In this document: in pieces, positions 2,179 through 50,659 of the stretch | Numbering within the stretch: the stretch's first letter is position 1 | How the letters are laid out: every line of letters starts with the position of its first letter | Assembly (NCBI GenBank): GCA_003554945.1 | Contig: PWHN01000083.1 | Coordinates: 1-64,000 of the forward strand | DNA length: 64,000 nucleotides | Reading direction: 5' to 3' | Source: a bacterium | GTDB lineage: Bacteria > T1Sed10-126 | Translations under genes and position numbers: made by a program | The notes under the pieces: generated by a model | Seen by the model: only the letters and a program-made list of their open reading frames with translations | Databases searched by the model: none | What the model was told of the DNA's origin: nothing

Positions 2179-2220
2179 CGTGTAACCGTTTATCTCTTAG
2201 TCCAGCAATTTTTGGTTACC

Positions 2221-2352
2221 GGGGGATAATCACTCTTTTCCCGCGGATTTATACGTTTCCATGGCCCTGGAGGGGCCGAGTATGGAAACGTATACCTCGG
2301 AGTCTCGCCGGATGCGAGAGGAGAATGAGCCGGAAAAGGGTGATTGTCCCCC
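2221..2352 (+). ncRNA. Putative structured element, three-way junction family, copy X
   Basis: Outer stem GGGGGATAATCACTCTTTTCC/GGAAAAGGGTGATTGTCCCCC (21 bp incl. 2 G.U); P1 TATACGTTTCCAT/ATGGAAACGTATA; P2 TCTCGC/GCGAGA; junction motifs GGATT, CCTCGGA, GAGAATGA shared with two other copies. Confidence 0.65.
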
Positions 2353-2406
2353 TCTATCGCGCTGGTGTCTAATGCGGCATCAACTACCAGAAAAAGAGTC
2401 ATTGGG

Positions 2407-3462
2407 CTACTCGTCCAGGTGGGGCTCGGGTTCAAATACGGGGTTGGCGTGTTCGCTCAACAGTAGCTGTTCGTCCAGCGGATTGCGCAACTCAACCACG
2501 CGCGGGTCCCGTTCCCGGTAATCGTCGTCTCGCTCCGGCGGCTCCGGTAGCTCCGCATCACCGAGACAGTAATCCCAGTGGTCACACTTAATTTCCGATC
2601 CATTTTTTTTCTGAAAGTGACACCACTTGAATTGCTCGTTGCGGGGGTAGTTTTCAACGTCTTCGGAGACGGTAAGCTCACGCACACGCTCGAGCATCAA
2701 GTGTACCGATTCGATTGTCCCAGGGTCAATTTCCTTGAAGACAAACGCGGTCGAACTCTGCGGCGGCTCAGCAAGAAAATGTATCCCAGCTACCTCGGGC
2801 ACCTGGCCGAACGCCTGGTAATATAGCCAGCCATAGACGTCGAGCTGGCGCCCGTAGTCGACGCTTAACGGCGACGAAGAGTTAAAAGGACTCTTACCCG
2901 TCTTGTAGTCAATTATAGCCGTGCGCTCAAACCAGAGCGGATGTTTCTCAAATATTGCGTCAACACCACCGCCGAATAGCCAATTACCGTCAGCGTCGGT
3001 CACCCGCACAGTCAGTTCGTTAGCGTCCGGACTCGACCTATCCCAGGCTTCCTCGTCGGATAGCTTTGTCCGCCGCTTGAGCTGATGAAACCGGCGTAGA
3101 AAAGCGTTCACGTAATTCTGAAACTGCAGCTTCAATTTGTCAGCGTTACGCTTCATTTCCTCTTCAAACTTCCCGGGCAACCCCTCCTGCCAGAGCTCGC
3201 GCGCTTTCTTATTTATCCGCTCGTTAAGGACATTTTTCGCCTTCTTTCCCCCGCCGGCAACCGGCGGCCCCGGGTCGCGGTTGAACTCTTCCACCACCGC
3301 ATGCACAAAAGTTCCTTTTTTCATCGCATAACTGGGCGGCGGCTTCAGCCCTTCAATATACTCGTAAGCCCACATCCGCGGACAACTGTAAAACTTGTTT
3401 ATCTGCGAAGCTGAAAATACCCTCAGCTCGTCTTCTTCCGTCTTAATTTCATCCATCATCAC
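2407..3462 (-). CDS. PD-(D/E)XK nuclease superfamily protein (RecB/Cas4-like)
   Basis: 351 aa; SASQINKFYSCPRMWAYEY, GTFVHAVVEEF, IIDYKTGK, C-terminal Cys cluster KWCHFQ..KCDHWDYC. Confidence 0.85.
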   Translation of the reverse strand: MMMDEIKTEEDELRVFSASQINKFYSCPRMWAYEYIEGLKPPPSYAMKKGTFVHAVVEEFNRDPGPPVAGGGKKAKNVLNERINKKARELWQEGLPGKFEEEMKRNADKLKLQFQNYVNAFLRRFHQLKRRTKLSDEEAWDRSSPDANELTVRVTDADGNWLFGGGVDAIFEKHPLWFERTAIIDYKTGKSPFNSSSPLSVDYGRQLDVYGWLYYQAFGQVPEVAGIHFLAEPPQSSTAFVFKEIDPGTIESVHLMLERVRELTVSEDVENYPRNEQFKWCHFQKKNGSEIKCDHWDYCLGDAELPEPPERDDDYRERDPRVVELRNPLDEQLLLSEHANPVFEPEPHLDE

Positions 3463-3480
3463 TATCGGCTCCTTTTATTT

Positions 3481-3693
3481 GGCTCTGTAGAAAACCTTAT
3501 AATTTACCTTTTAACTTCGACAGAAGGTTTTGGCCCCTTCGTATACGGATTTATAGAAATTAGTAGCCCCGGATGGGCTGATTACTAATTTCTATACCTC
3601 GAACCCAGCCGGTTCATCATAAAAAACCAGCTGGGGAGAATGAGTAGCGAAAGGGTCCAAAACTACACTCCGCTTGGGGATCTCTACAAAGCT
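3481..3693 (+). ncRNA. Putative structured element, three-way junction family, copy Y (core 3527-3663)
   Basis: P1 TATAGAAATTAGTA/TACTAATTTCTATA (14 bp perfect), P2 CCCAGC-GGTT/AACC-GCTGGG, junctions GGATT, CCTCGAA, GAGAATGA; outer ends RGCTYTGTAGA inverted; flanked by TTTTATTT direct repeats (3473-3480, 3694-3701). Confidence 0.65.
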
Positions 3694-3774
3694 TTTTATT
3701 TATAAATCTCACGTTTCTCAACCTTTGATCAGAATAATATTTTCTTCCCATCCCCCTACCTTGCACCTTAGCAC

Positions 3775-4227: not shown

Positions 4228-5445
4228 ATGAAATTATCCGGTAAACTCCTTCTTCTCTTATCCCTTCTTATCCTGACCGGCTTCGCCTGTTTCAACACCA
4301 ATGCCCACTCCAACGACGTCAACCTACCCGACCGTCTAAACCGTTTCGGCCTCGACTTGACCCGCCAGCTTAACGAGGAAACTGAGGACAATCTCTTTCT
4401 CTCCGCCCCCAGCGTCAGTTTCGCTCTCTCCCTGGCCGCCCACGGCGCCGAAGACAAGACCCGGACCGAAATTGCCCAACTGCTTAACGTTGAAGATTTA
4501 CCCGAAACAGAATTTAACCAGCTCTCCCGCGAGCTGCTTGATTCTCTGCTCGCAGCCGACACCGGCGTCGAGCTGCACGTCGCCAACTCTCTCTGGCTCC
4601 AGGAAAATTTTCCTTTCCTTGAAAACTACGTCGAACGCTCACAAGAGTTCTATGACGCCAAGGTTGAAACCGCCGACTTCTTGGACCCCGAAACGGCCCG
4701 CCGCATAAACGACTGGGTCCGCCGCCAGACGCAGGACAAGATAGAAAAGATAGCCGACGAGGATGCTATCCGCGAGCTGATTGCCATGCTCTTCAACGCC
4801 ATCTACTTCGACGGTCAGTGGACAGAGGAATTCGATCCCGACCTGACTCAACCGGAACCTTTTTACCCCGCTGATGCTGACCCCGACACGGTGCCGACCA
4901 TGCAACGCGAGGATGACTTTGCCTACCTCGATAAGGAAGACTTCCAGGCCGTCTCCCTGCCTTACGGCGAGGGCCGTTTCAGTATGGACCTTTACCTGCC
5001 GGACGCCGACACACCGGCAGAGCAATTTGTCAAATCAATAACTTACGAGAAACTTCAAACCTGGCAGGAAGATATGCGCGAACAGGAAGTTGAAGTCAAA
5101 CTTCCCCACTTTGAGATAGAATACGAAAAAGAACTGCGGGAGATTTTGAGAGAAATGGGTATGCGCCAGGCTTTTGAACGCTACGACGCCAACTTTGGCC
5201 GCATGGTCGATTTAGAGGAGCTGACCGAAAACGTCTTCATCGACTTTGTCAAACATAAAAGCTACGTCGAGGTCGACGAACGGGGCACCGAAGCAGCCGC
5301 CGTCACCGGAATCGGCGTCGGCGTCACCGCCGTCCAACCCGAGCCGCCAACCATCCACTTCGACCGCCCCTTCTTCTTCCTCATCCGCGACCACCAAACC
5401 GGCCTCCACCTCTTCACCGGCCTCGTCACGGACCCCACCCAATAA
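4228..5445 (+). CDS. Serpin (serine protease inhibitor), putative lipoprotein
   Basis: 405 aa; signal peptide with LTGFAC; NSLWLQ, NAIYFDGQW, hinge VDERGTEAAAVTG, DRPFFFLIRD; AAAGGAG RBS. Confidence 0.93.
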   Translation: MKLSGKLLLLLSLLILTGFACFNTNAHSNDVNLPDRLNRFGLDLTRQLNEETEDNLFLSAPSVSFALSLAAHGAEDKTRTEIAQLLNVEDLPETEFNQLSRELLDSLLAADTGVELHVANSLWLQENFPFLENYVERSQEFYDAKVETADFLDPETARRINDWVRRQTQDKIEKIADEDAIRELIAMLFNAIYFDGQWTEEFDPDLTQPEPFYPADADPDTVPTMQREDDFAYLDKEDFQAVSLPYGEGRFSMDLYLPDADTPAEQFVKSITYEKLQTWQEDMREQEVEVKLPHFEIEYEKELREILREMGMRQAFERYDANFGRMVDLEELTENVFIDFVKHKSYVEVDERGTEAAAVTGIGVGVTAVQPEPPTIHFDRPFFFLIRDHQTGLHLFTGLVTDPTQ

Positions 5446-8971: not shown

Positions 8972-9850
8972 TTACTTACTCTTCTCGCGCCACCAGTTAT
9001 GTGCTTTTGAAACTGTTGATGGGCTCCGATTGAACCAGCGTGCTATATCAGATGTTCCATATCCTTCTTCATACATCTTGGCCATTGCTTCTCGCCGCAA
9101 ATTACTTATTGGCCTCTTTTTACTCTGTCCACGTATTTCTTCCGTAGTATATTCTGTTCCATCCACTACCTCCTGAGCAATCGTCAGCATAGTTTTCCGC
9201 CCCCTTTTCTCTTGAAACGCTTGTGCCTCACGTCCCTCCTGACGGCGCTGATAAAATTCATTCCATTCTTTTTCCAAACCAATATATGTCTCATCTCCCG
9301 GCATATCTGAACCACAGGCACGTAAACAGCTTTTAAAGGCTCCTACTCTATTTGGGCTGGAAAATCCAGGCGGATAACACCACGTATCTAAATTAATCCA
9401 ATCACACTCAATTCCTAAAAACCAATACCAAGAACTCCACTTGTAGTCCTGAGCAAAATCCGCTATACCTGCCTCAACCGGATTCATATGCACATAGCCA
9501 ACCACATTGTTAAGGTATCTTTTATCAAGAATCACCTTAACCACAGGCCGCCCCTGGGTTAAATGACCTCTAATATTACGACGTTTATTAAAACCGCGAG
9601 CATACTCGGAATGGGCAATTTTTAAAACTCGTCCAAGGGAAGTCCCCCCCATTTTTAACAGTAGATGTAGGTGATTGATCATCAAACAAAAGGAACCTAT
9701 TTTCCCACCAAGCCTATCCATTGTTCTATCAAGGAGCCTTAAATACGTAACCCTATCCTCAGGAGAGAAAAACAACGGCTCCTCCCGCTGACCACGTGTA
9801 CAGACATGATACCAATAGCCTTCCACATACGCTCTAACCGGATATCCCAT
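8972..9850 (-). CDS. REP-associated tyrosine transposase-like (Y1/IS200-like) protein with C-terminal HTH
   Basis: YWYHVCTRGQREEPLFF, FCLMINHLHLLLK (HxH), YVHMNPVEAGI; C-terminal MYEEGYGTSDIARWFNRSPSTVSK helix-turn-helix. Confidence 0.88.
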   Translation of the reverse strand: MGYPVRAYVEGYWYHVCTRGQREEPLFFSPEDRVTYLRLLDRTMDRLGGKIGSFCLMINHLHLLLKMGGTSLGRVLKIAHSEYARGFNKRRNIRGHLTQGRPVVKVILDKRYLNNVVGYVHMNPVEAGIADFAQDYKWSSWYWFLGIECDWINLDTWCYPPGFSSPNRVGAFKSCLRACGSDMPGDETYIGLEKEWNEFYQRRQEGREAQAFQEKRGRKTMLTIAQEVVDGTEYTTEEIRGQSKKRPISNLRREAMAKMYEEGYGTSDIARWFNRSPSTVSKAHNWWREKSK

Positions 9851-9924
9851 AATGATTTCATTTTATCTGATTTTATTAAACTTTCAAAGTATAAGAACAG
9901 CCTCGGAAAAATTATGTTCACTGA

Positions 9925-10119
9925 TTGTAACGTCTCACGATAATCCCGTGTAATTTATCGAATTACGAACGGGAAAACAATCCTCTCAAAATCAAAAACA
10001 TATTGGACAGGATAAAATTCTGATGTGCTGGATTTAAAACCACTTCAACGTCAATTAAGGGGTTTGGATTCACGGGCTTAATTCGAAAGGTTCACCGGAA
10101 TAAATTCGAGACGTTACAA
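9925..10119. repeat. Palindromic structure upstream of RAYT gene
   Basis: 12-bp perfect inverted ends TTGTAACGTCTC/GAGACGTTACAA; internal CCCGT-GTAATTTATCGAATTAC-ACGGG. Confidence 0.6.
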
Positions 10120-10267
10120 CTGATCAAGAGAAGCTGATGCAAAATCTTCATCTTTTTTTCAGGGAATAAGTAAATAATTCAAAGTACGAGGTAAAAGAAG
10201 GAGGTTGATTTTGGGGTGGGGGTTTGGTAAACTTTTGCCGCTTTCGTTGGATTGCTGTAGTTAAAAA

Positions 10268-49798: not shown

Positions 49799-49862
49799 AA
49801 CTAATACTCCTCCTGTGGTATGAAATCAACTTTTTAAGAATTTAAATTTTGCGGTTTCCTCG

Positions 49863-49999
49863 TTCTGAGGACCGATATATTTCTGACATCATTCTCAGTT
49901 GCCCTCCGGGCAACTTCCGAGGTATAAAGACCTCAAAACAACCCCATCCTGGGGTTTGAGGTCATTATAAATCCGTCAGAAACACATCGGTCCTCAGAA
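49863..49999 (-). ncRNA. Putative structured element, three-way junction family, copy Z
   Basis: Minus strand: 25-bp outer stem TTCTGAGGACCGATGTGTTTCTGAC/GTCAGAAATATATCGGTCCTCAGAA, P1 TATAATGACCTCAAA/TTTGAGGTCTTTATA, P2 AGTTGCC/GGCAACT, junctions GGATT, CCTCGGA, GAGAATGA. Confidence 0.7.
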
Positions 50000-50098
50000 T
50001 TACCGTTTTCTACAAAAGAGGGCCCAATCACTACTTGACCAAAAATAAACGCATAACGCAAGATATGGATTATCTTGCTTACAAAAAGTTAAACTTTA

Positions 50099-50659
50099 TT
50101 AAGAATTCAATTCACGATCAATCTGATCACAAACCCAGTGCAGACAGGCTATGTGGGCCTCCTGCACGTGGGCGGTGCGGGTCGCGGGAACATTAATTAA
50201 CTCGACGTCCAACTCCCGCATTTTTCCTCCTTCGGAGTCGGTCAGGCCAAAAACCCGACCATCTATTTCGAGGGCAGCTGTCAGTCCTCGTATTACATTA
50301 GGTGAGCTGCCGGAAGTGCTTATACCCAGAAAGACATCCCCGGGTTCACCAAGCGCTTTTATCTGACGAGAAAAAACCTCTTCAAAAGACCAGTCATTAC
50401 TTACTGCAGTTAAGGTGCTGGGACTGGCGGCAAGACTTATGGCCGGCCTCTGAATTGGTTCAACATTAAACTTCGCCACCAATTCAGTGGTAAAATGGAG
50501 ACTATCAGTGGCGCTACCTCCGTTACCAAAACTAATTACTTTGCCGCTCATTTCCCAGGTCTCAAGTATTGCATCACGAAGTTCAAAAAGATTGGCCGGA
50601 ACATCATCCGCCAGTCGTGTTAACGTTTTGCTTGCCTCGAGAAAATAATCGGCGTGCAT
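50099..50659 (-). CDS. SIS-domain phosphoheptose isomerase-like protein
   Basis: VISFGNGGSATDSLHFTTELVAKF, GISTSGSSPNVIRGL. Confidence 0.9.
   Translation of the reverse strand: MHADYFLEASKTLTRLADDVPANLFELRDAILETWEMSGKVISFGNGGSATDSLHFTTELVAKFNVEPIQRPAISLAASPSTLTAVSNDWSFEEVFSRQIKALGEPGDVFLGISTSGSSPNVIRGLTAALEIDGRVFGLTDSEGGKMRELDVELINVPATRTAHVQEAHIACLHWVCDQIDRELNS

Follow-up and report, generated by a model that had tools for sequence, protein, structure and literature searches.

A dispersed three-way-junction repeat with its constrained fold on one strand

We describe a dispersed family of intergenic structured repeats, real, widely distributed and previously undescribed, in which a single strand of about 120–135 nt per copy folds into a three-way junction whose core is fixed while its arms are interchangeable. 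Pair statistics show that it is the motif strand whose fold is under constraint, irrespective of the reading direction of the genes on either side. The best reading, to which we give a probability of roughly one half, is a folded single strand of the REP/attC kind that is partly dispersed as the cargo of MITEs. The repeat is abundant, is widespread in Nitrospirota and is missing from both Rfam and the literature searched. Its wobble statistics reveal strand polarity independently of host transcription, and so the family can serve as a clean test of what makes a folded strand persist in genomes.

The copies in the window and their common fold

The window, which is the whole 64,000-nt stretch of DNA analysed here, holds three copies, X, Y and Z (Table 1). 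All three were found in the window sequence where a sequence-only reading had placed them. Their folding z-scores against shuffles are −7.9, −6.8 and −11.5, respectively. In the window, the tag CCTCGR..GAGAATGA has three occurrences, where dinucleotide shuffles predict 0.02, and the longer tag TATACCTCGR..GAGAATGA occurs 23 times in the window's genome against none for a reversed control. Y and Z each lie within a larger element; a TIR or target duplication flanking X was looked for and none was found. This stretch of a bacterial genome also encodes a serpin (PF00079, E 1.7e-108), at 4228–5445 (+).

Table 1. Positions of the three copies, their parts and the elements that enclose them
Feature	Position	Strand	Details
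Copy X, three-way-junction repeat	2220..2353	+	model match, fold
X outer arms	about 2221-2244 / 2329-2352	+	
X core	GGATT 2245-2249; CCTC 2295-2298; GGA bulge 2299-2301; GAGAATGA 2321-2328		P2 follows the GGA bulge
X P1	2250-2294	+	
Copy Y, three-way-junction repeat	3522..3668	+	model match, fold
Y core	GGATT 3547-3551; CCTC 3597-3600; GAGAATGA 3636-3643		P2 long
Y P1	3552-3596	+	
MITE enclosing Y	3481..3693	+	213 bp; 16-bp TIRs GGCTCTGTAGAAAACC / GGATCTCTACAAAGCT
Y MITE, left target-site duplication	3473..3480	.	8 bp, TTTTATTT
Y MITE, right target-site duplication	3694..3701	.	8 bp, TTTTATTT
Copy Z, three-way-junction repeat	49863..49999	-	model match, fold
Z core	GGATT 49974-49970; TATACCTC from 49926; GAGAATGA 49896-49889	-	
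MITE-like element enclosing Z	49843..50098	-	256 bp; degenerate CTAAAGTTTTGC-type ends
Z element, end 1	50099..50107	.	direct repeat AATTCTTAA, probable target duplication
Z element, end 2	49834..49842	.	direct repeat AATTCTTAA

The copies have one layout in common: outer stem, GGATT, P1, CCTC, GGA, P2, GAG, AATGA, outer stem. P1 starts with TATA or similar and has a 4-nt 3′ bulge below a GC-rich tip. At the junction, where the sequence-only reading had proposed that three pairs of motifs can pair or stack, ATT/AAT and CTC/GAG are indeed paired, with one unpaired C ahead of CTC, whereas GG and GA are opposed and the GGA (rarely GAA) is a bulge in P2. CTC/GAG is changed on both sides, to CTT/AAG, in two copies (C13:9697 and C47:26135). 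Folding with DNA parameters pairs ATT with AAT in X, Y and Z, and gives the CTC/GAG pairing and the 3-nt bulge in Y and Z; with RNA parameters, the ATT/AAT pairs are absent from the predicted minimum. Among copies found by covariance model, CCTCGGA is kept in 42 of 46 and GAGAATGA in 40 of 46. The Nitrospirota outer stem, as read from the alignment, has an extra tandem G.A opposition below the core.

Across 19 copies from the window's genome, 92.8% of cells at paired positions are paired, as against 37–44% when the partner is slid by 1–3 columns, and double-sided changes occur at 30 of the 44 pairs. Covariation measured in this way is significant, and it is also strong in the Nitrospirota copies, far above the slid controls. 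These data show that the constraint on the stems (outer, P1 and P2) is mainly one of pairing, while the core letters stay constant. The earlier proposal of selection on structure plus a constant core is thus supported by pair counts, covariation and many homologues. The accompanying statement that the stems differ completely among copies holds for X, Y and Z only: stems do differ from one subfamily to another, but within a subfamily primary sequence is shared.

Distribution, carriers and turnover

A covariance model built from the 19 own-genome copies (R1) finds at least 60 copies in the window's genome, X, Y and Z among them; this and the other copy counts are lower bounds, as the first 150 candidates per genome were scored and many copies lie at contig ends. 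R1 found no copies in the one other genome of the same family (G001) nor in 19 further genomes, a comparison in which the source phylum is represented by two genomes. When some 85,000 species genomes were scanned for ATACCTCGGA..GAGAATGA, at least 111 stretches matched. Among the matches listed, the full architecture occurs in Nitrospirota, in one Nitrospinota-labelled MAG and in one Latescibacterota MAG, and the other stretches are without it; scan matches in other phyla fall outside the structure matches of a second model, R2, and were set aside as chance. R2, built from 47 scan copies in Nitrospirota MAGs with the window's genome left out, recovers X, Y and Z (E 4.7e-12, 1.5e-11 and 7.8e-8), and R1 reciprocally recovers the Nitrospirota copies. 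All ten genomes reached from scan matches, the Latescibacterota MAG included, contain the repeat (at least 22, 40, 108, 14, 38, 38, 41, 21, 4 and 10 copies). The homologue search thus yielded many further copies, in the window's genome and in others. The sequence-only reading, which did not recognise the repeat as a known Rfam family, is also supported here: no family reached threshold in searches at gathering and relaxed settings, which returned tRNAs and sub-threshold matches (CsrB and miRNA models) alone. A literature search, with subscription papers outside its scope, returned no paper describing the repeat.

Copies are intergenic and lie in either orientation with neighbouring genes about 30 bp away. 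Those in the window's genome fall into types (V, W, Y and Z among them) within which primary sequence is shared. The V type (about 235 bp) and the Y type (about 200–213 bp) have related 16-bp TIRs. Identity of their flanking 8-bp duplications exceeds that of cross-copy controls (0.75 vs 0.34 for V; 0.88 vs 0.53 for Y), with a signal that peaks exactly at 8 bp, so V and Y are demonstrably MITEs with TIRs and target duplications, and many copies in this genome lie inside such elements. In the Z and W types the ends are CTAAAGTTTTGC; of their 11 copies, 5 are accompanied by direct repeats 6 bp or longer (6–9 bp), as against 2.7% of controls. The contention that the repeat is unlike REP or MITE copies is therefore not supported, and as regards MITEs it is wrong, given that copies of one type share primary sequence, that V and Y are MITEs, that Z and W copies often show end duplications and that the lifestyle is REP-like. 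Among the TIR matches in this genome, which is fragmented into 121 contigs, no facing TIR pair 1–2 kb apart was seen that would point to a related autonomous transposon. Elements of 66–118 bp with V-type TIRs carry no complete core. Two short elements, one coreless (L372) and one with a partial core (L382), have exact 8-bp duplications. Such short elements suggest that the core, and with it the fold, is MITE cargo; the alternative is that the core was later lost by internal deletion. At four further loci in this genome (L375, L377, L381 and L384), lone V-type TIR ends adjoin unrelated repeats, for example GGGGGAGGATTAAGGTGGGGG-type and CCCGCCCATT hairpins.

Presence and absence can be read in two spacers. 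The Z-bearing spacer is 178 bp shorter in G001, which is without an R1 match. In the trpE-trpG spacer, the repeat is present in G118 and absent in G117, with flanks 90–92% identical; TATGC flanks the G118 insert, which fits either a 5-bp duplication or loss between short repeats. Orthologous trpE-trpG copies in six species differ in P1 and P2 sequence yet still pair; turnover of all three stems, the outer one included, is seen even among orthologues. The ends of orthologues change in pairs as well (AAAGC/GCTTT, AAGGC/GCCTT, AAGGA/TCCTT).

Stems also gain and exchange parts. P2 carries an insertion of 70 nt in some V copies and about 100 nt more in some W copies. Long forms with 70–100 nt extra in P2 were noted in the window's genome at L087 (C102:63789), L085 (C24) and L080 (C47:26135), and the 70-nt insert has inverted ends in itself, CCGAGCACTCAAT. 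In one Z-type copy the P2 is of V type, and one Y copy is nested inside the P1 of another type. In Nitrospirota, P1 tips often house another palindrome; a second palindrome of the form CCCCCC..TCCCCCCTT..AAGGGGGGA..GGGGGG occupies the tip of many copies, L106, L107, L125 and L144 among them.

In genome G098, the outer stem extends 5–8 bp past its conserved part with letters that are copy-specific and still paired: pairing falls from 98 to 65% over the first six positions against 41–72% in cross-copy controls, and is at chance beyond. These copy-specific ends, taken 6–8 bp outside the conserved outer stem, show no G.T excess (9:8) of the kind found in the inner stem. The private complementarity prompted the idea of insertion into pre-existing palindromes, which we did not adopt because the six empty trpE-trpG spacers contain no palindrome and because the ends of orthologues change in pairs. 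Some copies in G102 and a few in G098 sit in longer flanking inverted repeats. No excess of direct repeats was found around the 46 G098 copies, the best pair of which is 88% identical. Mobility in G098 is thus something we infer, as the copies are old and have no target duplication.

Strand polarity and rival explanations

A process acting on double-stranded DNA would be expected to leave G.T and A.C cells in equal numbers. On the motif strand, G.T exceeds A.C in set A2 (86:19), in set A3 (107:26) and in the window's genome (33:9); some of the G.T cells may be inherited rather than independent events. The excess holds at 18 of 20 informative pairs in A2 and 22 of 24 in G098; for the copies of the window's genome taken by themselves, a per-pair sign test does not reach significance (9:5, p=0.42). 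It is present whether copies lie antisense (61:6) or sense (42:9) to their neighbours, and among copies with codirectional neighbours 21 are sense and 37 antisense (p=0.048). Because antisense copies show an equal G.T excess and there is no sense bias, the fold is kept on one strand independently of host transcription, which argues against an mRNA regulator and leaves single-stranded DNA or a self-transcribed RNA. The median gap to the nearest ORF, 30 bp, would favour the former. In the closed genome G096, GC skew is too flat to place the origin, and for that reason replichore bias there is not interpretable.

We propose that the motif strand would be recognised while single-stranded, most likely as ssDNA in replication or transfer, by a putative nuclease/recombinase or a nucleoid protein, and that this recognition would have preserved the core while the repeat multiplied. 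In the window's genome, the repeat may have been amplified further by riding in MITEs that transposases mobilised in trans. No Y1 transposase gene lies close to an element among the matches listed. A bolder form of the proposal, in which the repeat is a self-standing mobile module whose strand-specific junction, present in at least three phyla, is processed by a putative enzyme, accepts tip palindromes and is captured by unrelated MITEs, seems to us speculative and rather doubtful.

Tolerance of G.T is no less compatible with RNA than with ssDNA, and a possible if somewhat unlikely alternative is that the repeats are the dispersed genes of a self-transcribed structured RNA (SINE-like or sRNA-like) whose fold is what selection acts on. 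This reading would account for the covariation, which is strong, and the wobble tolerance, both typical of RNA, for the tandem G.A of the Nitrospirota outer stem and the internal G-rich motifs, and for the conserved core; however, 30 bp to the nearest ORF leaves little room for a promoter, a 3′ U-run terminator is not seen, and the ATT/AAT pairs appear with DNA parameters rather than in the RNA-parameter minimum. Drift of MITE palindromes, with templated quasipalindrome correction and a core common by descent, would explain the MITE ends and duplications, the 5–8 bp of copy-specific terminal complementarity and the wholesale replacement of stems between orthologues. We nevertheless consider it unlikely, since such correction would keep neither the unpaired core letters nor an excess of G.T over A.C on one strand, and since one core is found both in MITE families that differ in their ends and in places where there are no TIRs.

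Still less probable, and contradicted by the present data, is a cis-regulatory or mRNA-stabilising role for the neighbouring genes, as a leader, terminator or processing site. Many copies do lie close upstream or downstream of genes, and several species retain orthologous copies between trpE and trpG, but these lie antisense to the operon, and in six other species that spacer is empty; overall orientation, if anything, is antisense, and the G.T excess is equally strong in antisense copies. An intrinsic terminator was rejected on the lack of a U-run and the occurrence of copies in both orientations. The GGA motifs raise the idea of a CsrA/RsmA decoy, with GGA hairpin loops binding CsrA as in CsrB. 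GGA is found in 29 of 36 P2 loops and 30 of 34 P1 tips in the window's genome, and Z has a CsrB match of 22.4 bits, below the gathering threshold of 71. Yet X and Y have no CsrB match even at E 1, the loops lie outside the conserved core, and in Nitrospirota a GGA at the centre of P2 is present in just 32 of 62 stems. With the GGA loops not conserved in Nitrospirota, a CsrB-like decoy was rejected and is very improbable.

Relation to known systems

Like the families in Rfam, the repeat has covarying stems around a constant core; none of those families matches it at threshold. It resembles MITEs in that its V and Y carriers have TIRs, 8-bp target duplications and no coding capacity, and differs from them in that one internal fold is common to MITE families whose ends differ and to copies for which no TIR was found, and in that short TIR elements exist without the full fold.

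Y1 proteins of TnpA-REP subclass 2.1 (TIRYT) have DnaA_C or HTH tails and are associated with TIR repeat families (PMC6006769, PMC3733652). Similarly, the window encodes, at 8972–9850 (−), a 292-aa relative of Y1 transposases with an HTH/DnaA_C-like tail; its match to NCBIfam REP_Tyr_transpos (E 3.2e-14, 53 bits) is below the 80-bit cut-off. In contrast to TIRYT systems, however, X, Y and Z do not show the published TIR consensus GGGG[AT][CG]A[CG] (PMC3733652, PMC6006769) in that form, and over 5 kb separate this Y1 gene from the closest copy. Upstream of it, at about 9920–10120 (−), is a 12-bp perfect inverted repeat, TTGTAACGTCTC / GAGACGTTACAA, with arms about 170 bp apart; CGAATTTAT follows the left arm, and neither R1 nor R2 matches there.

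The nearest system in lifestyle is that of REPs and RAYTs. REPs, REPINs and BIMEs are likewise high-copy, intergenic, palindromic and strand-polar and fold as one strand, and the genomes that host our repeat mostly have Y1 proteins. A REP, however, is a hairpin of 20–40 bp, whereas the present repeat is a three-way junction of about 130 nt. Inspection of the aligned copies showed that neither a GTAG nor a CGTC tag is conserved at the palindrome's foot; comparison of coordinates in 11 genomes found no REPtron (a Y1 gene flanked by repeats) among the matches listed; and G101, a MAG of unstated completeness with 38 copies, has no PF01797 match. Identity with REP/RAYT was therefore rejected, there being no tag and no adjacency, and one host having no Y1 protein detected.

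The ends of IS608, attC sites and REPs are all recognised as single-stranded DNA, and attC sites and IS608-type ends conserve the fold of a single DNA strand but leave its stem sequence free. Neither integron-integrase motifs nor an IS gene was found, and the three-way junction sets it apart from these sites. The likeness, read from pair statistics, is that the repeat also conserves a one-strand structure with free stem sequence. If an enzyme is found, the three-way junction would join the few structures known to be recognised as single-stranded DNA in mobile elements.
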